Made by a program: the position numbers and the translations under genes. The notes beneath the pieces were generated by a model. It did not search any database, was not told where the DNA came from, and saw only the letters and a list, made by a program, of their open reading frames with translations. Below are positions 5,041 to 63,311 of a stretch of 64,000 nt of DNA, piece after piece. This DNA is from Bdellovibrionales bacterium RIFOXYD12_FULL_39_22 (lineage in GTDB: Bacteria > Bdellovibrionota > Bacteriovoracia > Bacteriovoracales > Bacteriovoracaceae), in contig MEQL01000040.1 of NCBI GenBank assembly GCA_001770205.1, positions 1 to 64,000 on the forward strand, written 5' to 3'. Every line of letters begins with the position of its first letter. Within the stretch, counting starts at the first letter, position 1.

Positions 5041-5054
5041 ATGCTCTCCTTGTT

Positions 5055-45754: not shown

Positions 45755-46685
45755 ACGTCGTTTTTTTTCTAAAATATTACTTTTTGGAGAATATAGCATC
45801 ATTAAAGATTCAATGGCACTGGCCACTCCGTATGCTCTTTTTGATGGACACTTGAAATTTAAAAGCTCTCCTTCCCGTAGCAGCGATAATGGCAACTCTC
45901 AGGGAAATGAATTTCGCGCCTATGCCCAGCACATTGAAAATTTAATAGAACAAAAATTGTTGCCAGTAGACATTGATATTAATGCGTTTAAGTTTGATAT
46001 CGCGCAAGGTTTATTTTTTAGTTCCACTATTCCACAAGGCTTTGGCCTGGGAAGTTCCGGCGCATTGGTGGCGGCAATCTACGATCGTTATGTAGATAAG
46101 AAAGATCGCGAACGCTTGCGCGCAGATATATTAAAATTAAAAGAGATATTTGCCTTATTGGAATCACACTTTCACGGAGCAAGTTCGGGAATAGATCCCC
46201 TGATTAGTTATTTGAATACTTCTATTTTACTGCGAAGCAAAGATGAAATTTCCGCAGTAAAATTTCCTGATTACACCGAGGGAGTGGGGGGTATTTTCCT
46301 TTTAAACACTGGGCGATCTAGGAGAACAGAGCCACTAGTTAATCTTTTTTTGGAAAAATGTAATAGTAATTTAGAATTTAGCAATCTTTGTGTTAATCGC
46401 TTGGCCCCTATTACCAATAGTTGTATTAACTCTTTTTTGGAGAAAGACACGGCCACCCTCTATCAGGCATTTCGTGATATCTCTGATTTTCAATTGAGTC
46501 ATTTTACCCCGATGATTCCAAAATTGTTTCGAGATATTTGGGAGCGAGGCCTAAAAAGTGAATGTTACTCATTAAAACTTTGCGGTGCTGGAGGCGGGGG
46601 ATTTTTGCTGGGTATAACAAAAAATTTTAGCGATACTTTTTCTATGTTATCTAAGATTGAAGTCCGTTCATTATTTAAATTTTAA
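45744..46685 (+). CDS. mvk: Mevalonate kinase-type GHMP kinase
   Basis: 313 residues from ATG 45744; a GTG at 45732 is possible. GHMP fold: SKILLFGEYSIIKDSMALATP (start), IPQGFGLGSSGALVAA (ATP loop, about 95-110), FHGASSGIDPLISY (catalytic Asp) and LCGAGGGGFLLG (C-terminal loop). The ordering and the GEY/S-I-x-K and SSGIDP motifs fit mevalonate kinase. With the GYDIA kinase and MvaD it completes mevalonate to IPP. Final gene of the tightly overlapping part. Confidence 0.88.
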   Translation: MPHERRFFSKILLFGEYSIIKDSMALATPYALFDGHLKFKSSPSRSSDNGNSQGNEFRAYAQHIENLIEQKLLPVDIDINAFKFDIAQGLFFSSTIPQGFGLGSSGALVAAIYDRYVDKKDRERLRADILKLKEIFALLESHFHGASSGIDPLISYLNTSILLRSKDEISAVKFPDYTEGVGGIFLLNTGRSRRTEPLVNLFLEKCNSNLEFSNLCVNRLAPITNSCINSFLEKDTATLYQAFRDISDFQLSHFTPMIPKLFRDIWERGLKSECYSLKLCGAGGGGFLLGITKNFSDTFSMLSKIEVRSLFKF

Positions 46686-46697
46686 GGAGCAAGAGAG

Positions 46698-47789
46698 ATG
46701 AGTAATGTCTATCTAGCGCGAGTTTCGTCGTCAGCCTCAACAGCAGAAATCGAAGATAAAATTAGACTTCTGATTAAAAAAAGTGACCTTCTCCGCGTAG
46801 TAACCTCTAATGACCTAACGGCCGTAAAATGTCATTTTGGGGAAGAAGGAAATAGTACCTATTTACCGGCCAACTACATCAAACAAGTAGTTGAGGCAAT
46901 AACCAAGGTAGGAGCACGGCCGTTTGTAACAGACACAAATGTTTTATATAAAAGTCGAAGAGACAATAGCTATGATCATTTGCAGTTGGCCAGAGAACAT
47001 GGTTTTTCCCATGAGACATTACAGGCCCCTGTTATAATTGCCGATGGAATAAAAGGGAAAAACGAAAAAGAAATTTTAATTGAGGCCCCACAAAATAGAA
47101 CAGTGTTTATTGCGTCTGATTATGTAGATGCCGATTCGCTTATTGTGATCACACATGCCACTGGCCATTTGGCCACAGGACTGGGAGCAACTATTAAAAA
47201 TTTAGGTATGGGGATGGCCTCGCGTAAAGGAAAGTTGCGACAACATTCTGTCTCTCATCCGCTTATTGATGCTAAAAATTGTACAGCATGTGAAAAATGT
47301 CTACAGTGGTGTCCGAGTGATGCAATAAAAATGGTAAGTAGTAATAGTGGAAACAAACATCATTATGCTCAAATCAACGATGAAGATTGTATCGGCTGTG
47401 GAGAATGTCTGGCCACCTGTCGGATGGGGGCCGTAAAATTTAAATGGGACTCTTCTTCAAAATTTTTGCAGCAACAGATTGTTGAACATGCGTTGGGCAT
47501 TGTGAAAATAAAAAAAGACAAAATGGCCTATTTAACCTTTTTAGTGCAGATGACAAAAGATTGTGATTGTTTACCTCAAGCGGCCGAATTTGTAGTGGAA
47601 GATATTGGTATTTTGGCCGGTTTTGATCCAGTGGCCTTGGATCAGGCCGTTTTGGATTTAACGACTAGGAAAAATGGTAAAGATAATTTGGCAACACTGT
47701 CTTATGCCGCTCACGATCCAAGTATACAACTAGAGTATGGTGAGCAAGTAGGTCTAGGCCAACGAGAGTATCAACTGATAGAGATTTAG
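46698..47789 (+). CDS. DUF362 protein with two 4Fe-4S clusters
   Basis: 363 residues. DUF362 domain (about 1-180; VKCHFGEEGNSTYLP, PFVTDTNVLYKSRRDN, THATGHLATGLGATIKNLGM) followed by two ferredoxin motifs CTACEKCLQWCP (about 196-207) and CIGCGECLATCRMGA (about 232-246; each CXXCXXCXXXC). The remainder (GIVKIKKDKMAYLTFLVQMT, VALDQAVLDL) also belongs to DUF362. Cytoplasmic iron-sulfur protein of unknown electron partner. It follows mvk after 12 bp, so it is transcribed with the mevalonate genes. Confidence 0.85.
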   Translation: MSNVYLARVSSSASTAEIEDKIRLLIKKSDLLRVVTSNDLTAVKCHFGEEGNSTYLPANYIKQVVEAITKVGARPFVTDTNVLYKSRRDNSYDHLQLAREHGFSHETLQAPVIIADGIKGKNEKEILIEAPQNRTVFIASDYVDADSLIVITHATGHLATGLGATIKNLGMGMASRKGKLRQHSVSHPLIDAKNCTACEKCLQWCPSDAIKMVSSNSGNKHHYAQINDEDCIGCGECLATCRMGAVKFKWDSSSKFLQQQIVEHALGIVKIKKDKMAYLTFLVQMTKDCDCLPQAAEFVVEDIGILAGFDPVALDQAVLDLTTRKNGKDNLATLSYAAHDPSIQLEYGEQVGLGQREYQLIEI

Positions 47790-47795
47790 TATAAT

Positions 47796-48494
47796 TCAAG
47801 TTGCATCTGGAAGAGTAAGCGTCGCTTTTTTATTAATTTGGAGTGCACGCTCTGATCGGGATAAGTTCCAGGTGCGAATTATTTGTCCATTTTGAGAGTC
47901 AACATGGGCGGAATAACTTCGGCGTTCTTGATTGGGCATAATAAAAAATATATTTACTCGCTCAATAAAACGGCCTTCATTTTTGCTGTTTACTTCTATC
48001 CAACTATCTTCGTGATTAATAATAAGCGAAGTATTTTCCTCTTGAAAGCGAAAGAGTTCCTCTCCCAGTTTTGTCTCCCAGTCAGCAGAGATTTCATTGA
48101 GCATAGGGAGTTCTATTTTTTCATCGGTAAAGTTAGAAATATTTGCTCCAGTTAAATAACGATTTAGGCGTTTGGGATATTGGCCTTGTGCAATAAGCTC
48201 ATCATTTTCCTCATTGCTTGCTTCATTGCTATTTTTTGTAGAAGTTAGCGTATCGGCCGGTAGTTTATTATCTCCAATTTGTAATCGTTCTAAATCATCA
48301 TTTGTTGCTTTGGTTGCAGAAATCGTTTGATTGGATTTTGTGTAAAGGGTATAGCGTTGTTCTTTATCTTGGAGTGATGATGGGCGAGTTATTTGTCGAT
48401 TGCTAGAATCTGATTTTAGAAAATAAAAAGGAGAGAGAATAATTAAAGTGAAAATGAATAGGGATATTAGGGCCAAGATATTTTTTTTTCTCAT
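47796..48494 (-). CDS. Membrane-anchored protein of unknown function
   Basis: 232 residues from ATG 48494. One N-terminal membrane helix (about 6-26, ILALISLFIFTLIILSPFYF), with the rest outside the cytoplasm: a Ser/Asn/Glu-rich linker and a C-terminal domain (about 120-232; FRFQEENTSLIINHEDSW, QNGQIIRTWNLSRS). No family recognised. Downstream of the leucine operon on the same strand after 37 bp, convergent with the DUF362 gene with 6 bp between. Confidence 0.65.
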   Translation of the reverse strand: MRKKNILALISLFIFTLIILSPFYFLKSDSSNRQITRPSSLQDKEQRYTLYTKSNQTISATKATNDDLERLQIGDNKLPADTLTSTKNSNEASNEENDELIAQGQYPKRLNRYLTGANISNFTDEKIELPMLNEISADWETKLGEELFRFQEENTSLIINHEDSWIEVNSKNEGRFIERVNIFFIMPNQERRSYSAHVDSQNGQIIRTWNLSRSERALQINKKATLTLPDAT

Positions 48495-48531
48495 ACAGGC
48501 CAAAGTCTATAACGGCGCAAAAGAGACGTCA

Positions 48532-49470
48532 TTATTTTTTTGCGTTGATGGTTGCCAGGCATTTTGAGGTAGTGGCCTTACCAAGTTTATTTAAAATAAA
48601 GCGAGAGGCAACTGCTAGCTTATTTAAATCAACACCGGTGTTAATCTTGGAACTTTCTAACATAAAAACTAAATCTTCGGTGGCCAAATTACCAGGTGCC
48701 CCGGGAGCATATGGGCATCCACCCAATCCCCCAGAGGATGAATCAAATTTACTAATTCCATGCTGGAGACTGACAAAAACATTGGCCAAAGCTTGTCCAC
48801 GAGAGTCATGAAAATGCATGGCAAATTTAGCAAGGTCAAAATTAAGTTTAAGTTCATTTAAGAGTTTATTTACTTCCATGGGGGTGGCCACTCCAATGGT
48901 ATCACCCAACGATATTTCATAAGCACCTAGAGTAAAAAGTTTTTTGATTACCTTTTTTAGAGTAGAAATCTTAGTCTTGCCCTCGTAAGGGCAACCAAAA
49001 ACAGTAGAGATATACCCCCGCACTTTGCACCGATGCTTTTTTGCTAGCTGAGTAATTGGAATAAAACGGGTAAATGACTCATCAATGCTGGCATTGATGT
49101 TATGGCGATTAAAACTCTCTGAGGTGGCGGTAAAAATGGCCACTTCAGAAACCTTGGAAGCAATGGCCGCCTGCATTCCCTTGGCGTTAGGAATAAGAAC
49201 AGGAAGATTTATAGAATTGCCAAAAGCAGACTGGAGTTTTGCCAGTAGATATGCGGCATCGGCCATTTGTGGTACGCGATCTGGGCGTACGAAGCTAGTT
49301 ACTTCGATATTTTTAAGGCCTGCAGCAACTAAAAGTGAAATGTAATTAAATTTATCCTCGCTACTAAGCAGCAGACTTTCATTTTGCAGGCCATCTCTTG
49401 GCCCAACTTCAATAATTTTAACTTTTCTAGGAAGTGAGAATTTTACTGGCCTGGCGGTACCTGATGACAT
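48532..49470 (-). CDS. mvaB: Hydroxymethylglutaryl-CoA lyase
   Basis: 312 residues, TIM-barrel. Cleaves HMG-CoA to acetyl-CoA and acetoacetate, the end of leucine catabolism. KIIEVGPRDGLQNE (about 18-31, catalytic Arg and Asp), the SLGDTIG motif, FHDSRGQALAN (metal-binding His/Asp) and the active-site cysteine loop GGLGGCPYAPGAPGN are all seen. Follows the biotin carboxylase gene after 2 bp. This enzyme consumes the same HMG-CoA that the reductase at 42240 uses. Confidence 0.95.
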   Translation of the reverse strand: MSSGTARPVKFSLPRKVKIIEVGPRDGLQNESLLLSSEDKFNYISLLVAAGLKNIEVTSFVRPDRVPQMADAAYLLAKLQSAFGNSINLPVLIPNAKGMQAAIASKVSEVAIFTATSESFNRHNINASIDESFTRFIPITQLAKKHRCKVRGYISTVFGCPYEGKTKISTLKKVIKKLFTLGAYEISLGDTIGVATPMEVNKLLNELKLNFDLAKFAMHFHDSRGQALANVFVSLQHGISKFDSSSGGLGGCPYAPGAPGNLATEDLVFMLESSKINTGVDLNKLAVASRFILNKLGKATTSKCLATINAKK

Positions 49471-49472
49471 CT

Positions 49473-51470
49473 CTATTTTTCTAGCTCAATCAGATTTACA
49501 CCGCCATTAATAACCTCTCCCTCTTTAAAATGGATTTTGGAAATTTTACCATCGCCGTTGGCCTTAATAGTGTGCTCCATTTTCATTGCTTCCATGATTA
49601 AAAGAGGTTGGTTTTTTGCCACAGCTTCACCTTCTTTAACCAGGATTTTAAAAATTTTCCCCGGCATGGGAGAGAGCATTCCTCCATGTTCGGCCTCGCC
49701 ACTTTTTTTGCGTGTGCGTGTTGGAATTTCCATTACTACATCTTTACTTTGGATAACGGCATGAACCTTGTTAGTTCTTCTGTTTTTGGTCATGGAAACA
49801 GTAAAATTTTTCTTCCCATCGTTAATGACTAGTTGATCCCCTAGTGCGGCCACTTGGCGGAAATTATAGTTTCTATTCATAACAGATAATTGTACTTCAC
49901 CGTCACTATTTTTTGTAAGCTTGTAATCAACTTCCTCCCCATTAATTATAATTTTGCGGCCAACAAAATTGGCGGAGAAACTACCTAGGGTATCCCAAGC
50001 AGTAGTGGCCGAGCCACGAGTAGTAGCATTGTAGTTAACGTTGGTATGGTAAGTTTCTTGTGGGCAGAATAACTGAGAAGAGATGGCCAGAGCGATCTCC
50101 TCTCGGCGTAAATCTTTTGGTAACAGTTTATCTTTATTTACTTCCACGAAGTTGGTGTAGGTAAGGCCATCTTTAAATTCTTTTGTAGAGAGGATACGTT
50201 TGAGATAAGCGCGATTAGTTTTTAGGCCCAGAAAGATTACATCATCCAAAGATACGCCCATTTTATCAATGGCCTGGTTACGAGTTGCCGCATGTACAAT
50301 CAGTTTTGCCAACATAGGATCAAAATTAACGGTAACTTCATTGCCATCAATGTATCCGGTGTCCAGGCGAACATTGTTCAATGTAGGTCGGCCTGTTTTT
50401 AACACTTTGCCAATGGAGGGAAGAAAATTATTGGCCGGATCTTCCGCGTAAATACGAACTTCAATGGCGTGTCCTTGTTGAGAAATATCTTCTTGCTTAA
50501 CAGATAGTATATCTCCCTGGGCCACTTCGATTTGTAGTCGAACCAAATCATAACCGGTTACCATCTCGGTAATTGGGTGTTCCACCTGTAAGCGAGTGTT
50601 CATTTCTAAAAAGTAGAATTTTCCAGACTGATCCAAGATAAATTCCATCGTACCGGCCCCTTCATAGTTGATATAGGAAGTAATCTTGGTGGCCGTAGCG
50701 GTAATATCTCGACGAATCTCTGCGGTGAGAGCAGTAGATGGTGTTTCTTCAATAATTTTTTGATGACGTCGTTGAATAGAACATTCACGTTCAAAAAAAT
50801 GTAGATGATTGCCATGTTTATCTGACATCATCTGAACTTCAATATGTCTTGGATTTAAAATATATCTTTCCAGCAAAACGATATCATTACCGAAAGAGTT
50901 TTTGGCCTCTCGCTTAGCACTTTCAAGAGAGGATTGAAAATCTGCGGGATCATTAACCACGCGCATGCCTTTTCCTCCTCCACCAGCAGAGGCCTTAATC
51001 AAAACAGGATAGCCAATTTTATCGGCAGTCTCTTTAAGGAAGTTTGGATCTTGGTTGTTTCCATGGTATCCAGGGATTAAGGGTACGCCGATTTTTTCAA
51101 CAGTTTCCTTGGAAGTTTTTTTATCTCCCATTATGCGCATTGATTCGGGAGAAGGGCCAATAAAGATAATTCCCGCTTCCGTTACTTTCTTTGCGAAAGT
51201 GGGGTTTTCAGAAAGAAAACCATAACCAGGATGAATGGCGTCTACTTTTTGCTCCAAAGCAATTTTTACAATTAGTTCTTGATTAAGGTAGGTTTGCGAG
51301 AGTGGGCCTTGTCCTAAACAGATAGAAAAATCACCTGAAAAGGTGTGGGGTAATCCTATTTCATCTTCAGTGTAAATGGTTACAGTTTTAATGCCCATTT
51401 CTCGACAGGTATTGATAACGCGAATGGCAATTTCGCCACGGTTGGCAATTAAAATTTTGCTAATTTTCAT
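49473..51470 (-). CDS. Methylcrotonyl-CoA carboxylase alpha (biotin carboxylase) subunit
   Basis: 665 residues. Biotin carboxylase domain (about 1-450; ILIANRGEIAIRVINTCREM, ATP loop SAGGGGKGMRVV, MNTRLQVEHPITEMVTG), a linking beta domain, and a C-terminal biotinyl domain with the biotinylated Lys in MEAMKMEHTI (about 632). Could be the alpha subunit of a propionyl- or acetyl-CoA carboxylase too, but the neighbouring hydratase, beta subunit and HMG-CoA lyase point to methylcrotonyl-CoA carboxylase. Overlaps the hydratase gene by 11 bp. Confidence 0.92.
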   Translation of the reverse strand: MKISKILIANRGEIAIRVINTCREMGIKTVTIYTEDEIGLPHTFSGDFSICLGQGPLSQTYLNQELIVKIALEQKVDAIHPGYGFLSENPTFAKKVTEAGIIFIGPSPESMRIMGDKKTSKETVEKIGVPLIPGYHGNNQDPNFLKETADKIGYPVLIKASAGGGGKGMRVVNDPADFQSSLESAKREAKNSFGNDIVLLERYILNPRHIEVQMMSDKHGNHLHFFERECSIQRRHQKIIEETPSTALTAEIRRDITATATKITSYINYEGAGTMEFILDQSGKFYFLEMNTRLQVEHPITEMVTGYDLVRLQIEVAQGDILSVKQEDISQQGHAIEVRIYAEDPANNFLPSIGKVLKTGRPTLNNVRLDTGYIDGNEVTVNFDPMLAKLIVHAATRNQAIDKMGVSLDDVIFLGLKTNRAYLKRILSTKEFKDGLTYTNFVEVNKDKLLPKDLRREEIALAISSQLFCPQETYHTNVNYNATTRGSATTAWDTLGSFSANFVGRKIIINGEEVDYKLTKNSDGEVQLSVMNRNYNFRQVAALGDQLVINDGKKNFTVSMTKNRRTNKVHAVIQSKDVVMEIPTRTRKKSGEAEHGGMLSPMPGKIFKILVKEGEAVAKNQPLLIMEAMKMEHTIKANGDGKISKIHFKEGEVINGGVNLIELEK

Positions 51471-52263
51471 AGTTGATCCACCTCGGTTGACTCTTATTTA
51501 ATAATGAATTCATCCCTTCTTGCCCCTCTTGTGATATTCTGGCAAGAGAAATTGCTTGGCAGGTATAATCTCTAATCTCTTCTCTGTTTTTATTTGATTT
51601 TACCTTTTTAATTAATTTTTTAGCATTAGTGGTTGCGGATGGGCCGGCCTTTAAAAATTCCACAATAATCTCTTCTGCTTTTGCAGTAAGCTCGCTGCTT
51701 GCCACTACTTGATGAATGAGTCCCATAGTTTGAGCGCGGGCCGGAGAGAAGAGTTCGCCCGATAAAAAAGTTGCGCGAGCGTTGCTTTCTCCTATTTTTG
51801 CTATTACATATGGGGAGATAACCGCTGGTAAAAGGCCTAGACGAACTTCCGTAAAACCAAAACGGGCCGCTTCAGATGCCAAAGCGTAATCGCAGACGGA
51901 GACCAGTCCCGCGCCACCACCCAAAGCTGCTCCATTAATTTTTCCGATTACGGGGCAGTTACAGTTGTTTACTGCCTCAAACATGGCCGCAAGTTTTTGA
52001 CTGTCTTGGTAGTTTTCCTCTTGGGTATATTTGGCCATGCTTTTCATCCAATTAAGATCTGCTCCCGCACAAAAAGATTTCCCCGCCCCAGTTATTACGA
52101 CTAGGCGCGTATTGAGGCCATTATTAATGGATTCAAAGAGTTCCGTCAACTCAGAAATCAACTGATCGTTGAACGCATTATGTATATCGGGACGGTTTAA
52201 GGTGATTGTTAAAACACCTCGCTTATCTCGATTTTCCAAAAAAAGTTTTTCTTTTGCACCCAC
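51460..52263 (-). CDS. Enoyl-CoA hydratase, probable methylglutaconyl-CoA hydratase
   Basis: 267 residues, crotonase fold. TLNRPDIHNAFNDQLISEL, the oxyanion-hole GKSFCAGADLNWMKSM (about 63-78) and GAALGGGAGLVSVCDYALAS (about 110-129) are typical; VRLGLLPAVISPYV is the family's conserved LGLIPA segment. In this operon it would hydrate 3-methylglutaconyl-CoA to HMG-CoA. Substrate inferred from context. Lies 23 bp after the carboxyltransferase gene and overlaps the carboxylase gene by 11 bp. Confidence 0.88.
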   Translation of the reverse strand: MGAKEKLFLENRDKRGVLTITLNRPDIHNAFNDQLISELTELFESINNGLNTRLVVITGAGKSFCAGADLNWMKSMAKYTQEENYQDSQKLAAMFEAVNNCNCPVIGKINGAALGGGAGLVSVCDYALASEAARFGFTEVRLGLLPAVISPYVIAKIGESNARATFLSGELFSPARAQTMGLIHQVVASSELTAKAEEIIVEFLKAGPSATTNAKKLIKKVKSNKNREEIRDYTCQAISLARISQEGQEGMNSLLNKSQPRWINYEN

Positions 52264-52286
52264 AGGAAACTCCCCCTTTTGGCCAT

Positions 52287-53909
52287 CTACATACGGAAAA
52301 TACCCCAGCTACAATCTTCTATTTCGCTGTTTAGCGAAGCGGCCAGCGCTAGACCTAAAATATCCCGGGTCTGTGCGGGATCGATGATTCCATCATCCCA
52401 CAAGCGGGCAGTAGAGTAGTATGGATGGCCCTCTTTTTCATATTTTTCTAAAATGGGTTTTTCAAATTCGCGCTTTTCTTCAGCATTCATTTCTGATTTC
52501 TTTTTACTCTTCAAATTTTCTTGGCGCACGGTAGAAAGTACTCCAGCTGCTTGCTCTCCTCCCATTACGGAGATACGAGCATTAGGCCACATCCATAAAA
52601 AACGAGGATCGTATGCCCGGCCGCACATTCCGTAATTGCCAGCGCCAAAGGAGCCACCAATGATGACGGTAAGTTTGGGCACGTTGGCGGTAGATACGGC
52701 CGTAACCATCTTTGCCCCATGTTTGGCAATTCCTTCCGCTTCATATTTGCGGCCGACCATAAAACCAGTGATGTTTTGTAAAAAAATCAGAGGAATTTTT
52801 CGCATGCCACATAACTCAATAAAATGTGCACCTTTAACGGCAGATTCGGAAAATAAAATTCCGTTGTTGGCCACAATGCCTACTTGATGGCCATGAATAC
52901 GAGCAAAGGCACAAACTAAAGTAGTTCCATATTTTTCTTTGAATTCATGAAATTCAGAACCATCTACTAGACGACAAATAATTTCTCGAACATCGTAAGG
53001 GATTTTGGTATCTTTAGGTACTATGCCGTAGATTTCATCTGGTGAGTAGAGGGGGGGGGCGAAGGGGTTAGTCTCCTTCTGGCGTTTTAAGCTACCCTGT
53101 GATTTATAATTTAAATTCTCAATAATGTTGCGAGTAATCATGAGTGCGTCTTCTTCTGTTTCTGCAAAGTGATCGGCCACTCCAGATTCTTGCGTATGCA
53201 CTCGTGCTCCACCTAAATCTTCGGCATTAACTTCTTCTCCGGTGGCCGCTTTTACTAACGGTGGACCGGCCAAAAAGATAGTTCCATTCCCTTTAACGAT
53301 GACTGATTCGTCGGACATCGCTGGAACGTAGGCACCACCGGCCGTGCAGGAGCCAAGCACTACTGCAATTTGAGGAATACCTTTGGAGGACATTTGCGCT
53401 TGATTATAAAAAATGCGGCCAAAGTGTTCTTTATCAGGGAAAACTTCATCTTGCATAGGGAGAAATGCACCTCCGGAGTCGACAAGGTAGATGCAGGGCA
53501 AGCGATTTTCGAGGGCAATTTCTTGGGCGCGTAAATGTTTTTTGACGGTCATGGGGAAGTAAGTTCCACCTTTAACGGTGGCATCATTGGCCACAAACAT
53601 ACACTCCACTCCATGCACTCTACCAATACCACAAACGATTCCTGCCGAAGGAACATCTTCAGGATACAACCCATAAGCGGCCATTGGAGATAATTCTAAA
53701 AAGGGAGTCCCCTCATCAATAATGCGTTCAATACGTTCGCGAGGTAAAAACTTACCGCGCTTGTGGTGGCGCTCAATATATTCCGTGCCTCCGGCCTCTT
53801 TGACTGATTCTATTTTGGCCATCAAATCTTTGCGTAAATTTAGATTAAAGGCGCGGTTTTTCTTAAATTCGTCGGAATGAATATCAACTTGGGAGTTAAA
53901 CTGATCCAT
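52287..53909 (-). CDS. Methylcrotonyl-CoA carboxylase beta (carboxyltransferase) subunit
   Basis: 540 residues. Double crotonase fold with [18 protein letters not shown] (about 142-160), [16 protein letters not shown] and, in the C-terminal half, [19 protein letters not shown] and [12 protein letters not shown], as in MccB/propionyl-CoA carboxyltransferase family. Ends the reaction that adds carbonate to 3-methylcrotonyl-CoA. First gene of the minus-strand operon; the isovaleryl-CoA dehydrogenase gene usually upstream is absent here. Overall length is that of LiuB/MccB. Confidence 0.92.
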
Positions 53910-54945: not shown

Positions 54946-56172
54946 GTGACAAGCTACAGTTTGATTTTTTTAAAAATTTTCTTACTTTTCATTCTTTCTG
55001 GAGAGATTTTTGCCCTCTATTCACTAAAATCGACGGCATCTAGTGGTTACTATCGCGATCGTAAAAACCTTGACCACGTCACGACTTTTTTTGATTTTCA
55101 ATACCATTACCTGGATAAAAGTGGTGTGGAAGGCTTTCTTGATTTGGGGTTAAATAATAATTTCTTACAGGATACGTGGGGAGTTTATCCACAGCAATTT
55201 AATATCAACGTGCCACTGGATAATGGGGTGAAAAATGCCCCATACTACAAGTCTAGAATCATCGTTGGCCGGCAGCTTTTAACCGAAGGTTTTGAAGTAG
55301 ATCTGTTAGATGGATTGATGTTGCCATACTATTTTTCGGCCGATGTCGGAGTAATCAGCTACGCCGGAGTATTACATGTGCTTGAACAGGCTCGAATTGT
55401 TACCTCCGATCAGATATACGGAACTTCACTACTCCTTAGAAAATGGGATTTAACTACCAAGATGGGGCCTGTCATAAAAAGCAGAGAAGGAAGTGAGCGA
55501 TTTTTAGGCCACATGTCGGTGATGAAAGATTTTGGAGAAACTTTTTTATCTCCAATTATTTTTGTCAAAACCCAATTCGACTTGGGAGAGATGGAGCACG
55601 ATCAGAGTTTGGCCGAAGCGCAACTTTTTTACAAAAAATTTCAAGGCGTACTTTCTTACTCCTCGCGGCGGCCAGATCGACTGTTACGGCCGGAGCGTAA
55701 TTTTATCTACTCGTTGGTTGCCATTGATAATCAGGAGAGTGTTGGGACGGCAATTTCTTGGGATAATGAGCGTGATCTTACTTTAGGCCATAAGGTGAAT
55801 GTGGTTAACTTCACATCATCTAAAGGAAAAGAGAGTGGCATGATTCAGGAGTTAAATGGTGACTGGAGGAAAGGGGCGCAAAAAATTTCACCGTTTTTAA
55901 CTATGATTTCCTCTTTTGGAGGGGAATATTATCAGGGTGGGGCAAATTATATTTACGTTGTGGATGATTTTCGAGAAGTTAATGTGGAATTTGATGTGGC
56001 CAGATGTGATAAGATTAACGGTATTGAGGCGTGGTTGTACCACTCTCAAGTCGGTATGAATTACAATTTTTGGAAGAGATGGAAAGCTCTTCTATCTGTA
56101 GAGGGAGAACGCAATCATCTTTTTGATTTTAATTTAAAGGCCGTGGTATATGTCACATATTTTCAATATTAG
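54946..56172 (+). CDS. Outer-membrane barrel heading the cytochrome cluster
   Basis: 408 residues, GTG start. Signal peptide about 1-23 (GEIFA-LY). The remainder shows alternating amphipathic strands with many aromatic residues (SGYYRDRKNLDHV, FDFQYHYLDKS, LYHSQVGMNYNFW) and a C-terminal YVTYFQY strand, consistent with a beta-barrel. No CXXCH motif. Its 3' end overlaps the first cytochrome gene by 23 bp. By position it could be the pore of a porin-cytochrome conduit, but it is not recognisable as MtrB/PioB; that is inference. Confidence 0.68.
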   Translation: MTSYSLIFLKIFLLFILSGEIFALYSLKSTASSGYYRDRKNLDHVTTFFDFQYHYLDKSGVEGFLDLGLNNNFLQDTWGVYPQQFNINVPLDNGVKNAPYYKSRIIVGRQLLTEGFEVDLLDGLMLPYYFSADVGVISYAGVLHVLEQARIVTSDQIYGTSLLLRKWDLTTKMGPVIKSREGSERFLGHMSVMKDFGETFLSPIIFVKTQFDLGEMEHDQSLAEAQLFYKKFQGVLSYSSRRPDRLLRPERNFIYSLVAIDNQESVGTAISWDNERDLTLGHKVNVVNFTSSKGKESGMIQELNGDWRKGAQKISPFLTMISSFGGEYYQGGANYIYVVDDFREVNVEFDVARCDKINGIEAWLYHSQVGMNYNFWKRWKALLSVEGERNHLFDFNLKAVVYVTYFQY

Positions 56173-56800
56173 GTTTTCTTCTAAAGTTATACTTTTCTGG
56201 ACATTATTGTTCGGATGGGGGTTGTTGTCGTTTGCTAGCGATAAGGACAAGGATAAAGATAATGAACTCGGCTACAGCGTAAAGGATCCGAAGTTAAAAT
56301 TGCCATTGGAAAAGTTATATTCCCATGGGCATCATGCTTTATATTTTGAAAATTTAGGCGTTAAGTGTAATGATTGTCATAATTTTTCCATTAAATCAGA
56401 TAGTGGCCCTTTAGCTCCTCTGGTGAATATTCGAGCGCTGAAGTCGAACAAAAAAACCTGTCATGAATGCCATCTTGGGCAAATTTCTATTCCGAGACGT
56501 AACCAATGTTCGCTCTGTCACGATGATATTGCGGTATTGATGCCAAAAGATCATAAGATTAACTGGAAAAACAGACATGGGGTAAAGGCCCAGTTTGACG
56601 GAGATGCATGTAAGCAATGTCATCAACAAAATGAGTGTTCGGCATGTCACATGCGAAGAGATAATATGAATCCCCGCGTACATAGAGGAAATTTTAGATA
56701 CATGCACTCGATAGAGGCACGGGCCACTCCGGCCAGCTGTGTTAGTTGTCATCAATCACAAAGTTTTTGCAATGATTGTCATATAGGGAAGAGAAATTGA
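56150..56800 (+). CDS. Seven-heme c-type cytochrome
   Basis: 216 residues, signal sequence about 1-30 (FWTLLFGWGLLSFAS). Seven CXXCH heme sites: CNDCH, CHECH, CSLCH, CKQCH, CSACH, CVSCH, CNDCH, with several extra His for distal ligands (HGHH, DHK, NRHG). Probably periplasmic. No clear named family; the cytochrome c7/c3-like spacing of short motifs is typical of electron-transfer modules. Overlaps the barrel gene by 23 bp, and its TGA stop overlaps the next ATG (TGATG). Confidence 0.88.
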   Translation: MSHIFNIRFSSKVILFWTLLFGWGLLSFASDKDKDKDNELGYSVKDPKLKLPLEKLYSHGHHALYFENLGVKCNDCHNFSIKSDSGPLAPLVNIRALKSNKKTCHECHLGQISIPRRNQCSLCHDDIAVLMPKDHKINWKNRHGVKAQFDGDACKQCHQQNECSACHMRRDNMNPRVHRGNFRYMHSIEARATPASCVSCHQSQSFCNDCHIGKRN

Positions 56801-57081
56801 TGAGCAAGATATTAATTTTATCATTGATGTTTGGTTTGTTGATCAGTTGTGGCCAGGATCGACAGTTGGAAGTTTATGATCAAATGCAAGAGTGCAATTT
56901 AGATTTAACAGAGAGTAATCATGCCCATGGATGGCAGCAGACAGACTGTTTTTATTGTCACGTTATGGAGAATATTCATCAGGCAGATCAGCAAGGATGT
57001 GGAATAGTGGTTGCCGGAGAAATGACTGATGAGCTTAGTGATTGTCTTTCTTCTTGTCATGGCCAGAATGGAGTTGAATAA
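56800..57081 (+). CDS. Small monoheme lipoprotein
   Basis: 93 residues from ATG 56800, which overlaps the previous stop. Signal peptide with lipobox LLISCGQ (lipidated Cys about 16). One canonical heme motif CFYCH; near the C-terminus a second motif CLSSCH has three residues between the cysteines (CX3CH), a rare variant of uncertain heme binding. His-rich segment SNHAHGWQ precedes the canonical site. Likely a lipid-anchored electron shuttle. Confidence 0.75.
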   Translation: MSKILILSLMFGLLISCGQDRQLEVYDQMQECNLDLTESNHAHGWQQTDCFYCHVMENIHQADQQGCGIVVAGEMTDELSDCLSSCHGQNGVE

Positions 57082-57651
57082 GTGAAGTTTAATTTTAAAA
57101 GATGTCTTTATTTTTTTCTATCACTTTTGGTGCTTGTTGGTGGAATTTCAGCGCAAACTTTTAAACGACTTGATCCACATGGTAGTCCAGAAATGAATTT
57201 AATGCATGCGTCGGTGCAAGCGGAAAACATGTGCTTGATCTGTCATTCCTACGATACCGGTAAAAAAGGAGAAGATATTAGGACGTTCGAATATAATGGA
57301 CATAAAATGGTGTTTTCGTTGACAACGTTACCAAATGCGATTGAGCGTTGCTCTTCTTGTCATAGTGGGATGCCTCATAGCGGATTGGTTGAACATCTCG
57401 GTGCTGATTTGTCAAAATTAAAGATTGGAGTGAAAGGGAAAGTTGACTGTCTTAGCTGTCATCGACCACATAGGGCAAAGATAGTAACTGAGGAGGATAA
57501 ACGCAAGATAGCTGTCAGAGCAAAAGTGCCATTTGTGTTCAAAAAGCGTGGAAATTTAACTTTGCCTGCAGGAATGATAGAGCGACGCAACAGTACGGCC
57601 ATGTTAAGACGGGAGTGTGTTGATTGTCATACGAAGGATAATTTATTATGA
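57082..57651 (+). CDS. Four-heme c-type cytochrome
   Basis: 189 residues, GTG start right after the previous stop. Signal peptide about 1-24 (LVGGISA-QT). Heme sites CLICH, CSSCH, CLSCH and CVDCH, with additional His (DPHG, MPHSG, EHLG). The C-terminal half (KIAVRAKVPFVFKKRGNLT) is basic. Probably a periplasmic tetraheme carrier. Overlaps the next gene by 4 bp (ATGA). Confidence 0.87.
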   Translation: MKFNFKRCLYFFLSLLVLVGGISAQTFKRLDPHGSPEMNLMHASVQAENMCLICHSYDTGKKGEDIRTFEYNGHKMVFSLTTLPNAIERCSSCHSGMPHSGLVEHLGADLSKLKIGVKGKVDCLSCHRPHRAKIVTEEDKRKIAVRAKVPFVFKKRGNLTLPAGMIERRNSTAMLRRECVDCHTKDNLL

Positions 57652-59747
57652 CAAAAATGTTTTTTTATGCATTGGTTTTTGCAGCAATGGCCGCGCAGAC
57701 AATGGGCAAGGATGTTGCTTTCGAGTCCCTCTTTAAAAAGAGTATTATTGGCCCTTCACTGCTTACTGTCTGTGATGGAAAATTATGGGTATATAGTGTC
57801 GGAGAGGGAAAGTTTATTGTGCTAACTGCCAGCGGTGAAATGCTAAAAACTTATGGCGTTAAATTGCTAGGTGTTTCAGAAAAAGTTACGGCCATGAGTT
57901 GTCGTGAACAGGAAGTTATTTTCGCTACTTTAAATGGGCAAAATAAGGCCGAGTTATATCTTCTGGATGGTGGACAGGCCAAAAAGTTAAATTATGTGGT
58001 GGAAGATCAGGGCCACATTCATACGATTGCTTGTCAAAAAGAGAGTTGTTTAATTGGGCATAAAAATTTTTATATTTCTGCAGATTTAAAAAGATGGAAG
58101 CAATTAAATTTGATGTCGACAGCGGCGATTCCGCTGGCACAGGCCGACAAAGATCTGAATCCGTTTGTTGATTGGCAAAGAAATTTTGAATTGAGTAAAG
58201 ATAATTATTCGCGAGCAGTTATTACTGATTTAGCGGAGCTTTATTTATTAGATCCTTTTCAGGGCAGTGTCTTGTTGGCCGGAAAGTTGGATAAAGGGGC
58301 GTTTGTCGCTGAGAGTGTTACTGCAAAATGGGGGAAGTGGGGGGCCTGGGAAGGGCAGTTGATGTATCCCAAGGCCATCAAATATTGGAAGAAGCATGAC
58401 CTTTTAGTTTTTGCGGATGTTGGGTTGAAACATATTTTTTTCTTTGGTAAAGACGGTGAATATTTTGGCAAGCTGGGGGTAGAATCGGCTGATCTGGCAG
58501 AGATGAATTATCCGTTAGATGTGGCGATGAATGATAATTACATCTATATTGCGGATTTTTTGTCAAATATAGTGTGGGGGGTTGATCTTACTAAATTTGA
58601 AAAGAGTCCTGATGTGATTCCGGCAGAAGTAGAGGATTATTTTCATCGCAACCTTTTTAAAAATGAGCGAGTTAATGCAGGATTTTCAAAAGTAAGATGT
58701 CTTAATTGTCACGATGGGTTGGAAGTTTACAGTTTAGATAATTTTGTCAAAGCAAGAAGTCATCACCCACTAGATGTTGAGGTAGCAAAAGGGGTGGATT
58801 TGCCGCTGTGGCTAGGGAAATATATTTCCTGCGCAACTTGTCATACCCAACACCACGTTCCACTAGAGGGGAGATCTTATACACAAACTGGCAAAGAAAA
58901 TAAGGTCGAAAAATTGCCGCACAACTTGCGAAGAGAGTATCGACAGCTGTGTACAACTTGTCACCAAGATAAGACGGAAACAGGCAACAATCACTTGGAT
59001 TTAAATTTAGATATGAGATCGAGCAAGGCCGGTGGAGTTAAAGTTGTTTCGTGTTCTCAATGTCACGAAATGCATCGTGCCAGTGAGAAGTTGTTAGTCG
59101 GAGAGGATTCCGCTGTCTGTGTTAGTTGTCATGGGCCGTCCCATACTCCAGTTTCTCATCCTTTTGGGGCCGTGAACGCTTGTATGAGTTGCCACAATCC
59201 TGACAAACGGCCATCTACTCATCCTGTTTTGCCAGAGACTGCTCATTTTGCTGATCAATTGGCCAACAAGAAAATTCAGTGTTTCTCATGTCATAAGATG
59301 CATAATTCTAGCAAAGCAGATTATTTTCCTCGCAAAGATGACAAGGGACGAGATTGGAGTTGTTTGAATTGTCATCAAACTTTTGCTGCCTACGTTGGTA
59401 CTAATGCACACCTTATCTCCTATGGTGGGCCAACCGGCGTGCCGTGTATGAAGTGTCACAATCCCCATGATAAAGAGGTCAAGAATATTACTGTATTGTG
59501 TACTCGCTGTCACGTAGATAGAAAACAGCAGCATCGAAAAATTCCTGCAATGGAGCGTTACGGCGCGGATAATGTTAGATTGAAAAATTCAGAAATTGTT
59601 TGTTCCACTTGTCATCAACAACATGGACTTTCAAAAAATGAGAAATTTTTACGAGATAAAAATGTGATTGCCTCCTTCTGCGCTAGTTGCCATGCTGATG
59701 AGGCCCCACGTTTGTTTGAGAATTTCCATAACAAATTGCGAAGATAA
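57648..59747 (+). CDS. Beta-propeller/12-heme fusion cytochrome
   Basis: 699 residues, signal peptide about 1-20. Residues about 25-330 look like an NHL/beta-propeller-type domain (repeated LWVYSVGEGKFIVL, DLLVFADVGLKHIFFF, NYIYIADFLSNIVWGVD with Asp/Gly turns). From residue 351 to about 682, twelve CXXCH sites follow: CLNCH, CATCH, CTTCH, CSQCH, CVSCH, CMSCH, CFSCH, CLNCH, CMKCH, CTRCH, CSTCH, CASCH, with plentiful distal His. Propeller plus multiheme tail is a rare combination, known from some metal-respiring bacteria. The propeller may bind a partner protein or substrate. Largest and probably central cytochrome of the set. Confidence 0.88.
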   Translation: MTKMFFYALVFAAMAAQTMGKDVAFESLFKKSIIGPSLLTVCDGKLWVYSVGEGKFIVLTASGEMLKTYGVKLLGVSEKVTAMSCREQEVIFATLNGQNKAELYLLDGGQAKKLNYVVEDQGHIHTIACQKESCLIGHKNFYISADLKRWKQLNLMSTAAIPLAQADKDLNPFVDWQRNFELSKDNYSRAVITDLAELYLLDPFQGSVLLAGKLDKGAFVAESVTAKWGKWGAWEGQLMYPKAIKYWKKHDLLVFADVGLKHIFFFGKDGEYFGKLGVESADLAEMNYPLDVAMNDNYIYIADFLSNIVWGVDLTKFEKSPDVIPAEVEDYFHRNLFKNERVNAGFSKVRCLNCHDGLEVYSLDNFVKARSHHPLDVEVAKGVDLPLWLGKYISCATCHTQHHVPLEGRSYTQTGKENKVEKLPHNLRREYRQLCTTCHQDKTETGNNHLDLNLDMRSSKAGGVKVVSCSQCHEMHRASEKLLVGEDSAVCVSCHGPSHTPVSHPFGAVNACMSCHNPDKRPSTHPVLPETAHFADQLANKKIQCFSCHKMHNSSKADYFPRKDDKGRDWSCLNCHQTFAAYVGTNAHLISYGGPTGVPCMKCHNPHDKEVKNITVLCTRCHVDRKQQHRKIPAMERYGADNVRLKNSEIVCSTCHQQHGLSKNEKFLRDKNVIASFCASCHADEAPRLFENFHNKLRR

Positions 59748-59773
59748 AAATTTAGAGTATCAAAGAGATGATT

Positions 59774-59947
59774 ATGAGTACAGATTTGGATAAAGAAGAA
59801 TTAGTTCGGCCGGAAATTTTGAAATCAGCAAGTAATAGATTCTTTTTCCGGATAGTGGGAGCGATGTTGGGTTTTTTTATGGTGATGTTTGCGGTATTTC
59901 AAATTCTTTTTTTAGCTAAAGTTCTCCCGCATGGAGGATTATTTTGA
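59774..59947 (+). CDS. Small single-pass membrane protein of the cytochrome operon
   Basis: 57 residues from ATG 59774 (an in-frame ATG at 59768 adds two). Hydrophilic, acidic first half (STDLDKEELVRPEI), then one membrane helix (about 30-50, AMLGFFMVMFAVFQILFLA). Stop TGA 59945-59947 overlaps the TTG start of the NapC-like gene (TTGA), so they are coupled. Size and placement suggest a small subunit of the membrane complex. Confidence 0.6.
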   Translation: MSTDLDKEELVRPEILKSASNRFFFRIVGAMLGFFMVMFAVFQILFLAKVLPHGGLF

Positions 59948-60741
59948 AGAAGTTTTTATTGAAAAAATTTTGGATGGATCTATGGAGTAGATCGTTGCCT
60001 GTTTTAGTTTTTATGTTCCCTTCAATAATTGGAGGCGGAATTGTGGGCGCATATCCCGGATATAAAATTTACGAATATATATGGGAAGATGCCGATTTTT
60101 GTACTTCTTGTCATGTTCATGACTATGCAACACTGGCCTGGCAAAAAAGCAGTCATGGGAAGCTTACTACCTGTCACGACTGTCACCATCAGCCGCTTAT
60201 TGCTTATGCCATGGAGCCTTTGATAATGATCACTCATCAACCTAAGTTTCCGCAGGATTTAGATCATGTGCCGCATGTTCCTAATGGCCTTTGTGAGGCC
60301 TGCCATGTTTCTGATCCACATGATACTTCCACAATAAGTGGGCCGATGGCAGAAGCAGATATTAGAAAGCTTCCCAAAGTAGATAAAACCTACCTGCATC
60401 AAATCCATTTAAATGCCAAAACCACTTACCTTTTATTGAAGGATTTTAAAATTCCGAAAGAGGCCAGGGAGAATAATACTCCAATAATGCCAGATAGGGA
60501 AAAAGGAGAGGCGCGTTCGATTACATGCAGTGATTGCCACGGTGGCCCTTCAAATAGGGGACATAATTTCTCGGCCGTTGATAGTGCTTGTATCCGTTGT
60601 CATAATCAGGTGCATACTGATTCAACAATGGTTCAAAAGTTCGGTTGTAGAAACTGTCACTTTGCTGGATTTATTATGGAAGATATTACGGAAAAAGCAT
60701 TGGAAGGGATAGAGCAAGAAGTAGGCGCAAGAGAAGAGTAA
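59944..60741 (+). CDS. NapC/NrfH-like membrane-anchored six-heme cytochrome
   Basis: 265 residues; TTG start overlapping the preceding stop. An N-terminal anchor helix (about 17-42, LPVLVFMFPSIIGGGIVGAY) places the protein on the periplasmic face of the inner membrane. CXXCH sites: CTSCH (about 55), CHDCH, CEACH, CSDCH, CIRCH and CRNCH. The first two, with the SSHG after the first motif, recall the NapC/NirT quinol-oxidising family. It would take electrons from the quinol pool and pass them to the other cytochromes. Contains an extended insert (about 120-190). Confidence 0.85.
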   Translation: MKKFLLKKFWMDLWSRSLPVLVFMFPSIIGGGIVGAYPGYKIYEYIWEDADFCTSCHVHDYATLAWQKSSHGKLTTCHDCHHQPLIAYAMEPLIMITHQPKFPQDLDHVPHVPNGLCEACHVSDPHDTSTISGPMAEADIRKLPKVDKTYLHQIHLNAKTTYLLLKDFKIPKEARENNTPIMPDREKGEARSITCSDCHGGPSNRGHNFSAVDSACIRCHNQVHTDSTMVQKFGCRNCHFAGFIMEDITEKALEGIEQEVGAREE

Positions 60742-60877
60742 TTAGTAAAAAGTCCGACCTTTGTCATAAGCTATTTTTATATTGATTAAAGTTTTTAGTT
60801 TTTAGTTAAAAAATTAGGTTAGTTGCCGACAAGGTTTTTAGGCCAGGTTTGTTCAACTAAAAGAGTAGGTGAGTTAA

Positions 60878-61831
60878 ATGAATAATTTTAATAAAAAGTC
60901 ATCTTATAGAAAGTTATTAGGTTTGTGGGCCCTGTTTGTTTTGCTATCTTTTTTAGCTATTTCCTGTACGAAGATGACTGAACTTTCAGAAGATGATACT
61001 ACTCATGGACGGATTGATCCGCTGGCGTCCTGTAGCAGTTTTCCACATTCCACTGATTTTAAACGAGGCCAGCATGGGAAGTGCTTTTCTGCGCAGAAAA
61101 ATTTATGTAAAACTTGTCACGGCCAGGATCTGACTGGAGGCAGTAGCAAGATTTCTTGCATAGGTTGTCATAAAATGTTTGATCATGATGATGATTTTGT
61201 CTATTCAACTCATGGGGCAGAGTATTTGCGAGATAGTTCTGCTTGTACCGGCTGTCACGATATTGGAGTGCTAGCGACGACTAGTCGTCCGGTTTGTTGG
61301 AATTGTCACAATTATCCTCATCCATCCACCTGGTCATTACCGGCCAATCATGGGAAGAAGTTGTTGGCCGAGTTTGATAACGGAGATATCGTGGTAAATT
61401 GTAAAGATTGTCACGCCAAGGACTCTTCTTTGCGCGAAAGGTTTCCTGAAAAATTTGTGGGTTGTGATGCTTGCCACATAGAGGTACCTCATAGCGACGA
61501 TTTTACTGATTATGATCATGGGGAAGTGGCCAGAACTTATGCTGGTGGGTGTACTAATTGTCATAAAAATATGAATACCCTTATGCCTCGTTATGGTTCA
61601 TGTCGCTACTGTCATGATGATGATTTAATTCCGGTGATGAAGTGGCTTACAGAAAAAGAGCGCAGTAGATATGGCGTACTAAATCAGAGTAATAAAAATA
61701 AGGCCAAACAGGCGGTAAGAGTTGGCCGAAATCCTTCTTCCATAGAGGCCCGGCCCAAGACTATTTGGGATAAAATAAAAGAACGTGACGTAAAGAAGGC
61801 CAATCTAAAAAATACCCCTTCTAAAAAATAA
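60878..61831 (+). CDS. Eight-heme lipoprotein cytochrome
   Basis: 317 residues. Signal peptide with lipobox LAISC (lipidated Cys about 30). Eight heme sites: CKTCH, CIGCH, CTGCH, CWNCH, CKDCH, CDACH, CTNCH, CRYCH, all in the middle of the protein (about 80-250). The C-terminal 60 residues are basic and Lys-rich (IKERDVKKANLKN). Lipid anchoring suggests an outer-membrane or inner-membrane leaflet position. Separated from the NapC-like gene by 136 bp with no terminator visible, so possibly part of the same operon or with its own promoter. Confidence 0.87.
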   Translation: MNNFNKKSSYRKLLGLWALFVLLSFLAISCTKMTELSEDDTTHGRIDPLASCSSFPHSTDFKRGQHGKCFSAQKNLCKTCHGQDLTGGSSKISCIGCHKMFDHDDDFVYSTHGAEYLRDSSACTGCHDIGVLATTSRPVCWNCHNYPHPSTWSLPANHGKKLLAEFDNGDIVVNCKDCHAKDSSLRERFPEKFVGCDACHIEVPHSDDFTDYDHGEVARTYAGGCTNCHKNMNTLMPRYGSCRYCHDDDLIPVMKWLTEKERSRYGVLNQSNKNKAKQAVRVGRNPSSIEARPKTIWDKIKERDVKKANLKNTPSKK

Positions 61832-61853: not shown

Positions 61854-63311
61854 GTGGATGGTAGCTTGAAGAGTATAACAACGGCGGCGACCATTTTGAT
61901 AGTAGATGATGGCCCCGATTGGTTGGACACTTGCCGCGATATTTTATCAGATCATGATTTTAATGTATTGACGGCAACCAGCGGCAAGGATGTTATTAAG
62001 ATTATCCGCGATAATTTTGTTGATGTTATTATCACAGATTTAGTAATGCCTGAAATTGGAGGATTGGAGATTATTGAGAAGATTATGGCCCTAAAAGAGG
62101 GCCATAGTTGTATTTTAATGACAAGCTTTCCCTCTATCGAATCGGCCATACCCGCCTTGAAATCGGGAGCGGCCGATTATCTTATTAAACCTTTTACTCC
62201 TGAACAGCTACTTCACTCGGTTCGTAGTGTTTTAAAAAAAGATCGCTTGGCCCGAGATAATAGATTTTTGCGCGCCGAAATGGAACGTATTGGCCACTAT
62301 GGGGAGTTGATTGGCAAAAGTGATGTCATGAGAGAACTTTATCGCCAGTTAGAGTCGGCCAAGGGAATTGACTCAAGCATGTTAATTTTAGGAGAGAGTG
62401 GAACTGGTAAGGAGCTGGTGGCCCGCATTTTACACAGAAACTCTATTCGTAGTGCGAACTCTTTTGTCCCTATTAATTGTGCTGCTATTCCGGCCGATTT
62501 ATTGGAGAGCGAACTATTTGGCCATGAGGTGGGTGCCTTTAGTGGAGCAGTAAAGGCCCGCGAAGGATTATTTGAGGCCGGAGAAGGCGGAACTATTTTT
62601 CTTGATGAGATTGGAGAGATGCCATTGGCCTTACAGTCTAAATTATTACGGGTATTAGAAGATAAGAAAATTAGACGAGTGGGGGCCAATCGAGAAAAGG
62701 CCATTAACGTAAGGATTATTTCTGCTACCAATCGTAATCTTTTAGAGATGGTGAAAGAGGGGAAGTTTCGCGAAGATCTCTATTATCGCTTAAATGTTAT
62801 TTCTATGGCCATACCACCATTACGAGAACGTCGAGAGGATATTATTTTATTGCTGCAACATTATTTTTCCGTATTTGCTAGCAAAGATCGGATCGCGCCC
62901 AGCAAGATTAGCACTCAAGTGCGCGATGCCTTGCTAAAATATGCTTGGCCGGGTAACGTAAGAGAGCTTTCTAATTTGGCCCAGTTTTTATTGTATGCTA
63001 GATGTGGGGAGAGTGTGGAAGTAGAGCATCTGCCCAAGCAATTGCAGGCCATTGTCGAGCAGGCAAATGAGGAGTCGTTTGTGCAAGAGCGTTCATCATC
63101 TCAACTATTGGTAAATGATTTTTCTGCACTATATGATTTGCCTCTGGCCGAGGCCAAGCAAAAATTGGCCGATCATTTTGAAAAAAATTATATCAAAAAT
63201 TTACTTATTAAATATGATTGGAATGTATCTCAAGCGGCGGAAAAGTCCAGGTTTGATCGACGCTCTCTTCATCGTATTATTCATCGACATAATTTAAAAC
63301 GGCCAGAGTGA
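61854..63311 (+). CDS. NtrC-family sigma-54 response regulator
   Basis: 485 residues. Receiver domain (about 12-130; acidic pair VDD, phosphoacceptor Asp in VIITDLVMP, Lys in YLIKPF). AAA+ domain with Walker A GESGTGKE (about 179-186), the sigma-54 contact loop as GAFSGA instead of GAFTGA (about 227), Walker B TIFLDEIGEMP and arginine finger region. C-terminal Fis-type HTH (KYDWNVSQAAEKSRFDRRS). Immediately follows the cytochrome cluster, 22 bp downstream, a natural candidate regulator for it. No kinase gene adjoins. Confidence 0.93.
   Translation: MDGSLKSITTAATILIVDDGPDWLDTCRDILSDHDFNVLTATSGKDVIKIIRDNFVDVIITDLVMPEIGGLEIIEKIMALKEGHSCILMTSFPSIESAIPALKSGAADYLIKPFTPEQLLHSVRSVLKKDRLARDNRFLRAEMERIGHYGELIGKSDVMRELYRQLESAKGIDSSMLILGESGTGKELVARILHRNSIRSANSFVPINCAAIPADLLESELFGHEVGAFSGAVKAREGLFEAGEGGTIFLDEIGEMPLALQSKLLRVLEDKKIRRVGANREKAINVRIISATNRNLLEMVKEGKFREDLYYRLNVISMAIPPLRERREDIILLLQHYFSVFASKDRIAPSKISTQVRDALLKYAWPGNVRELSNLAQFLLYARCGESVEVEHLPKQLQAIVEQANEESFVQERSSSQLLVNDFSALYDLPLAEAKQKLADHFEKNYIKNLLIKYDWNVSQAAEKSRFDRRSLHRIIHRHNLKRPE

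Follow-up and report, generated by a model that had tools for sequence, protein, structure and literature searches.

The genome of Bdellovibrionales bacterium RIFOXYD12_FULL_39_22 carries a compact group of multiheme cytochrome genes beside a gene for a predicted outer-membrane barrel. Does this group carry electrons across the outer membrane, and in which direction, or does it serve a soluble acceptor in the periplasm? The evidence points strongly to a Pcc-type conduit that spans the outer membrane and links the quinone pool with the outside of the cell. It is broadly akin to the conduits of iron-respiring bacteria but includes an unusual propeller-cytochrome fusion. The open-access journal papers searched contained no description of one in Bdellovibrionota; the present reading would extend trans-outer-membrane electron conduits to a phylum known for predators.

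Gene content and conservation of the cluster

The window (the whole stretch of 64,000 nucleotides analysed, from contig MEQL01000040.1) holds the barrel gene, a gene for a 57-aa membrane protein and six cytochrome genes, grouped at 54946-61831 on the + strand. These features and the regulator gene that follows them are as follows.

54946..56172, +, outer-membrane beta-barrel of 408 aa with 22 predicted strands, GTG start, putative sheath of the conduit (AlphaFold2 model, phylum conservation, profile match)
56150..56800, +, periplasmic c-type cytochrome with 7 hemes, the likeliest occupant of the barrel (7 CXXCH; neighbour of the barrel in relatives)
56800..57081, +, small outer-membrane-type lipoprotein cytochrome with one CXXCH and one CX3CH (lipobox LISC; alignment)
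57082..57651, +, 4-heme periplasmic cytochrome, GTG start (4 CXXCH)
57648..59747, +, fusion of an N-terminal NHL beta-propeller and a C-terminal 12-heme MtrA/DmsE-like domain (profile matches)
59774..59947, +, 57-aa single-helix membrane protein (sequence; relatives in 4 loci)
59944..60741, +, inner-membrane cytochrome with 6 hemes, NapC/NrfH-like and probably a quinol dehydrogenase, TTG start (sub-cut-off TIGR03153 and PF03264)
60878..61831, +, 8-heme lipoprotein, probable outer-surface terminus (lipobox AISC; heme counts in relatives)
61854..63311, +, NtrC-type response regulator, sigma-54 dependent, that may control the cluster (PF00158, PF00072)

The first-pass annotation of this DNA had counted 38 CXXCH sites and described most junctions as overlapping. 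The recount on the + strand gave exactly the same figures, namely 7, 1, 4, 12, 6 and 8 sites per cytochrome in gene order. The DNA pattern encoding CXXCH occurred 40 times in the window, with 38 occurrences inside the cluster, against a chance expectation of 2.7 and a maximum of 8 among 100 shuffles. Most genes indeed overlapped or abutted: the barrel and 7-heme genes overlapped by 23 bp, the 7-heme/1-heme and 4-heme/12-heme pairs by 1-4 bp, and the genes for the 57-aa membrane protein and the NapC-like protein by 4 bp, while the 1-heme and 4-heme genes abutted. The 8-heme gene stood apart after a gap of 136 bp. A scan for sigma-54 promoters gave nothing above chance near the cluster and no clear site 5' of it, and the promoter and terminator scans gave results close to chance level.

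When the phylum was searched at E<=1e-20, the propeller-12-heme protein was matched in 15 of 369 genomes, the source genome counted. Around the fusion there recurred the barrel, the 7-heme cytochrome, a di-heme lipoprotein, the 4-heme protein, the propeller protein with 11 or 12 hemes, the small membrane protein, the NapC-like 6-heme protein and a member of the 8-heme family. The 7-heme protein was present as a single copy in 14 of the 15 fusion-bearing genomes, and in the remaining one the locus lies on a 6-kb contig. The gene set is thus a real module that recurs together in about 15 of the 369 phylum genomes. In some genomes, the barrel, 7-heme and di-heme genes lie apart from the propeller-12-heme and NapC-like genes, and this split arrangement supports a division into an outer-membrane half and an inner-membrane half. 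In the tree of the NapC-like and propeller-12-heme proteins, locus L035, which belongs to the same family as the source genome, grouped with genomes of other families with 100% support, suggesting horizontal transfer.

The barrel, the propeller fusion and the remaining cytochromes

Structure prediction of the barrel gave a 22-strand AlphaFold2 model with a pLDDT of 82.7. The barrel had no match in Pfam or NCBIfam at E<=1, nor among PDB sequences. With Foldseek, the closest solved folds were ushers and porins, at a TM of about 0.5; these are general large-barrel matches, and at that level they establish the fold class of the barrel, not its relative.

In the window, as in each of the nine phylum loci where BLAST matched the barrel, the barrel gene adjoins the 7-heme gene, and the same adjacency was found in Desulfobacterota loci. 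The two are consistent neighbours. The alignment of the 7-heme family (n=11 sequences) contained 7 CXXCH and 7 more invariant His. The predicted model of the 7-heme protein was poor (pLDDT 55.7), too low to judge its fit in the barrel. Its profile, at E<=1e-15, matched in 15 of 395 Desulfobacterota genomes, and none of the plasmid records searched encoded the protein. Compared with its counterpart in locus L096, the 7-heme protein showed 34% identity (5e-29). The barrel profile matched two further Desulfobacterota barrels at 95% probability, both of which adjoin a 10-heme cytochrome of the 7-heme protein's family; the match to the L095 and L096 barrels was weaker, at 81% probability. As judged by sequence comparison, the barrel and the 7-heme protein of the window are homologous to Desulfobacterota porin-cytochrome pairs.

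The 12-heme protein consists of an NHL propeller (approximately residues 21-320) and a heme domain (approximately 345-699). In the profile searches, the propeller matched the NHL structures of TRIM71 and Brat, with an E of 1e-28 to TRIM71, and the heme domain matched 6r2q_A (E 2.4e-20), a chain that we take to be MtrA, although it bears another molecule name in the copy used. The protein also matched TIGR03508 with an E of 1.5e-18 and 67 bits, under the DmsE family cut-off of 192 bits. Its family keeps 11 conserved CXXCH and 13 more conserved His. In the Bdellovibrionota loci, the propeller and the heme domain form one protein, and the fusion was also found in L098. In L096 and L059, in contrast, the NHL protein and a large multiheme protein are encoded by separate adjoining genes, the former matching the propeller part and the latter the heme part of the 12-heme profile. 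A search of Desulfobacterota with the propeller-12-heme profile at E<=1e-25 missed even the known matches, and its empty result therefore carries no weight.

Where one lineage fuses two genes that another keeps side by side, their products are usually partners. Because the NHL gene is a separate neighbour in most of the Desulfobacterota clusters examined and is fused here, we infer that the propeller would be the docking part for the multiheme domain. NHL proteins have been found near the cytochromes of extracellular electron transfer with their role unexplained (PMC9769857; PMC10734462; PMC12016550), and the NHL-MtrA-like fusion offers a testable idea for what they do in many such clusters.

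The NapC-like 6-heme protein matched two families below their cut-offs, TIGR03153 (NrfH) at E 3.5e-9 and PF03264 at E 6e-5. Its relatives in 14 phylum loci showed 44-59% identity, and its family keeps 6 CXXCH and 8 more conserved His. Relatives of the 57-aa membrane protein were found in 4 loci with 38-53% identity. The 4-heme family keeps 4 CXXCH and 4 more invariant His (n=10 sequences). Across the set, every conserved heme can be paired with an additional conserved His, and CXXCK is absent. This pattern fits hemes with bis-His ligation that serve electron transfer, and nothing in it points to a catalytic site. The set thus resembles a wire rather than a reductase.

The second site of the small lipoprotein is CLSSCH (a CX3CH motif, window 57043-57060), at a position where nine relatives have CXXCH in the alignment, so that the cluster may bind a 39th heme. 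The multiheme domains of L035, L037 and L033 contain CX3CH as well, and have ten CXXCH each, most relatives having eleven. The occurrence of CX3CH at expected CXXCH positions suggests that the heme-attachment machinery of the lineage accepts this motif.

The 8-heme lipoprotein is probably the outer-surface terminus, judging from its lipobox and from the heme number of its relatives, which ranges from 6 to 30. It had no match to TIGR03507 (the OmcA/MtrC family) at E<=1. Relatives with 30 and 25 hemes are encoded at 3787-6267 of L036 and 2407-4740 of L038, respectively, and in both loci a second, 7-8-heme copy lies beside the larger gene.

Relation to known conduits

Pcc Group II comprises clusters of Desulfurivibrio alkaliphilus, Desulfuromonas acetoxidans and Desulfurispirillum indicum, D. 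alkaliphilus having one Pcc cluster, of this group (Shi et al. 2014, PMC4245776). The genes of L095 and L096 are ordered as 9-heme, barrel, 7-heme, 8-heme, 6-heme, cytochrome-b-like 3-heme, NHL, 20-heme and 8-heme, and L096 is likely the published Pcc cluster of D. alkaliphilus AHT2. The window cluster shares with Pcc systems a barrel of about 400 aa with 22 strands (18-22 in Pcc) beside a periplasmic multiheme cytochrome, a 7-heme gene overlapping the barrel gene (Pcc periplasmic c-type cytochromes have 5-14 hemes), and further associated cytochromes. The 8-heme protein, which has a lipobox, is a candidate for the outer-membrane multiheme cytochrome present in most Pcc systems. It differs from Group II in its phylum, in its 6-heme NapC/NrfH-like entry where L096 has a cytochrome-b-like 3-heme protein, in the fusion of the propeller to the multiheme domain, and in a predicted surface cytochrome of another family. 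By architecture, the barrel and the 7-heme protein belong to the wider Pcc kind; by descent they probably do so as well, as their comparison with the Desulfobacterota pairs suggests.

The likeness to MtrCAB, MtoAB and DmsE lies in the MtrA/DmsE-like C-terminal half of the 12-heme protein and to a NapC-type anchor as in CymA. The barrel has 22 strands instead of the 26-28 of MtrB/PioB and is not MtrB-like, no protein of the MtrC/OmcA family is present here, and the MtrA-like part differs from the decaheme proteins MtrA and DmsE in its attached propeller and its 12 hemes. The first-pass annotation had recognised no MtrB or MtrC and had considered an unrelated route. The former statement holds, with no family match at E<=1 and no MtrB in the Foldseek top 50 of the barrel. 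The latter holds only to that extent, since the barrel and the 7-heme protein have their Desulfobacterota homologues and the 12-heme protein contains the MtrA/DmsE-like domain.

Compared by description only, the Uet cluster of Tenderiales and Gallionella resembles the window cluster in its NHL, 11-12-heme, tetraheme and barrel components (PMC10734462). Uet has an undecaheme UetJ, the trihemes UetDEG, the PPIase UetB, the porin UetC and the NHL proteins UetHI (PMC10734462); its three trihemes, PPIase and separate NHL genes set it apart from the window cluster, which contains no triheme or PPIase gene. The PCC3 cluster of Gallionellaceae and others likewise has a surface cytochrome of widely varying heme number, but its 21-27-heme periplasmic cytochrome has no equivalent in the window cluster (PMC10734462).

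Proposed electron path and competing readings

The set had been read as a NapC-like quinol-oxidising anchor, periplasmic carriers, lipoproteins and a possible outer-membrane pore. The analysis supports this description, the parts forming a probable conduit. Outward electron flow is, in our judgement, somewhat more likely than not, and the order of transfer would be as follows. At the inner membrane, the NapC/NrfH-like 6-heme protein, partnered by the 57-aa helix, would oxidise menaquinol. The 12-heme protein with its propeller and MtrA-like domain would, together with the 4-heme protein, relay the electrons over the periplasm. To pass the outer membrane they would use the 7-heme cytochrome, which may be housed in the 22-strand barrel, the small lipoprotein lying at the barrel's mouth. 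They would leave by the 8-heme surface lipoprotein for an extracellular acceptor, possibly a metal oxide, a humic substance, a shuttle or a partner cell.

The same conduit could also work inward and pass electrons from extracellular donors (Fe(II), sulfide-derived compounds or others) or from partner cells to the quinone through the NapC-like protein. We consider this unlikely: NapC/NrfH-type anchors are established as a family that normally oxidises quinol, even though Mto/Mtr-type conduits work both ways and some iron oxidisers possess PCC3 and Uet, clusters of a related kind (PMC10734462). D. alkaliphilus, moreover, is an organism of the sulfur cycle (PMC5016858), which would suit inward flow. 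The other respiratory enzymes found in the source genome do not decide the direction.

It is improbable that the barrel is an ordinary porin that admits a soluble acceptor to a periplasmic reductase chain formed by the cytochromes. Substrate porins, OprD-type ones included, were among the Foldseek matches of the barrel; nevertheless, the set contains neither an enzyme nor a catalytic heme motif, the barrel is paired with the 7-heme gene across loci, two of the cytochromes are lipoproteins, and nrfHA lies on another contig of the source genome. A nitrite (NrfHA), sulfur or octaheme tetrathionate reductase operon, the nitrite, sulfur or tetrathionate reductase kind being named in the first-pass annotation as the finding that would overturn its reading, was rejected: no catalytic multiheme subunit of PF02335 or TIGR04315 was matched over the cut-off in the set. 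A prey-contact system, taking electrons from the prey cell or giving them to it during predation, is most improbable, for although Bacteriovoracaceae include predators and the source genome shares its family with the Bacteriovoracaceae MAGs SI053_bin57 and BS150m-G24, the propeller-12-heme protein was found in only 15 of the 369 phylum genomes, Desulfobacterota that are not known to be predatory have homologues of both the barrel and the 7-heme protein, and the cluster is devoid of predation genes.

For the conduit with outward flow, a wider proposal can be made tentatively: a Bdellovibrionota lineage might respire extracellular acceptors through its own porin-cytochrome branch, in which the NHL-MtrA-like fusion docks inner-membrane and outer-membrane partners. 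If true, such docking would explain why clusters for extracellular electron transfer often include NHL proteins. Every named carrier is an uncultured MAG. In their names we read Saanich Inlet for SI034 and SI053, a depth of 150 m in the Black Sea, and groundwater for GWA1, GWB1, RIFOXYD1, RIFCSP, CG22 and NC_groundwater, so that many carriers apparently come from anoxic water or groundwater. The conduit reading suggests that some Bdellovibrionota breathe extracellular acceptors in such habitats.

The source genome, a 3.9-Mb draft, was surveyed by searches and in selected stretches. A COX1-family match was found in 14 of the 15 carriers. The sole match in the source genome lies in a frame some 780 aa long, a length that suits a quinol nitric oxide reductase better than an oxidase, and nrfHA is encoded on a contig other than that of the cluster. 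The organism may plausibly live anaerobically or microaerobically and use several acceptors.

Further redox genes were seen in the source genome. At 6203-10049 of L044 (G000:C25), a 4Fe-4S protein, an NrfD-type membrane protein and 13-heme and 6-heme cytochromes constitute a second quinol-cytochrome complex, with cydAB-like genes nearby. L043 (8071-12564, G000:C13) encodes 9-, 6- and 8-heme cytochromes together with two cytochrome b561-type membrane proteins. On the same contig, L091 (6584-13864, G000:C13) holds a set resembling Complex I or a group 4 hydrogenase; its 49-kDa-type subunit has no CXXC, and the set is therefore probably not a hydrogenase. Just past the window, L089 (2736-12165, G000:C40) encodes NuoE/NuoF-like proteins and an Fe-S/pyridine nucleotide oxidoreductase with a molybdopterin-type Fe4S4 domain, adjoining a PPDK_N protein; this set is possibly an NAD-linked formate dehydrogenase or a bifurcating enzyme.

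Elsewhere in the window, inspection of 43549-53909 by eye revealed mevalonate-pathway genes (43549-46685) near leucine-degradation genes (48532-53909), and the two are possibly linked via HMG-CoA. A gene pair at 4240-6596 resembles an IS21-type transposase and its helper ATPase.
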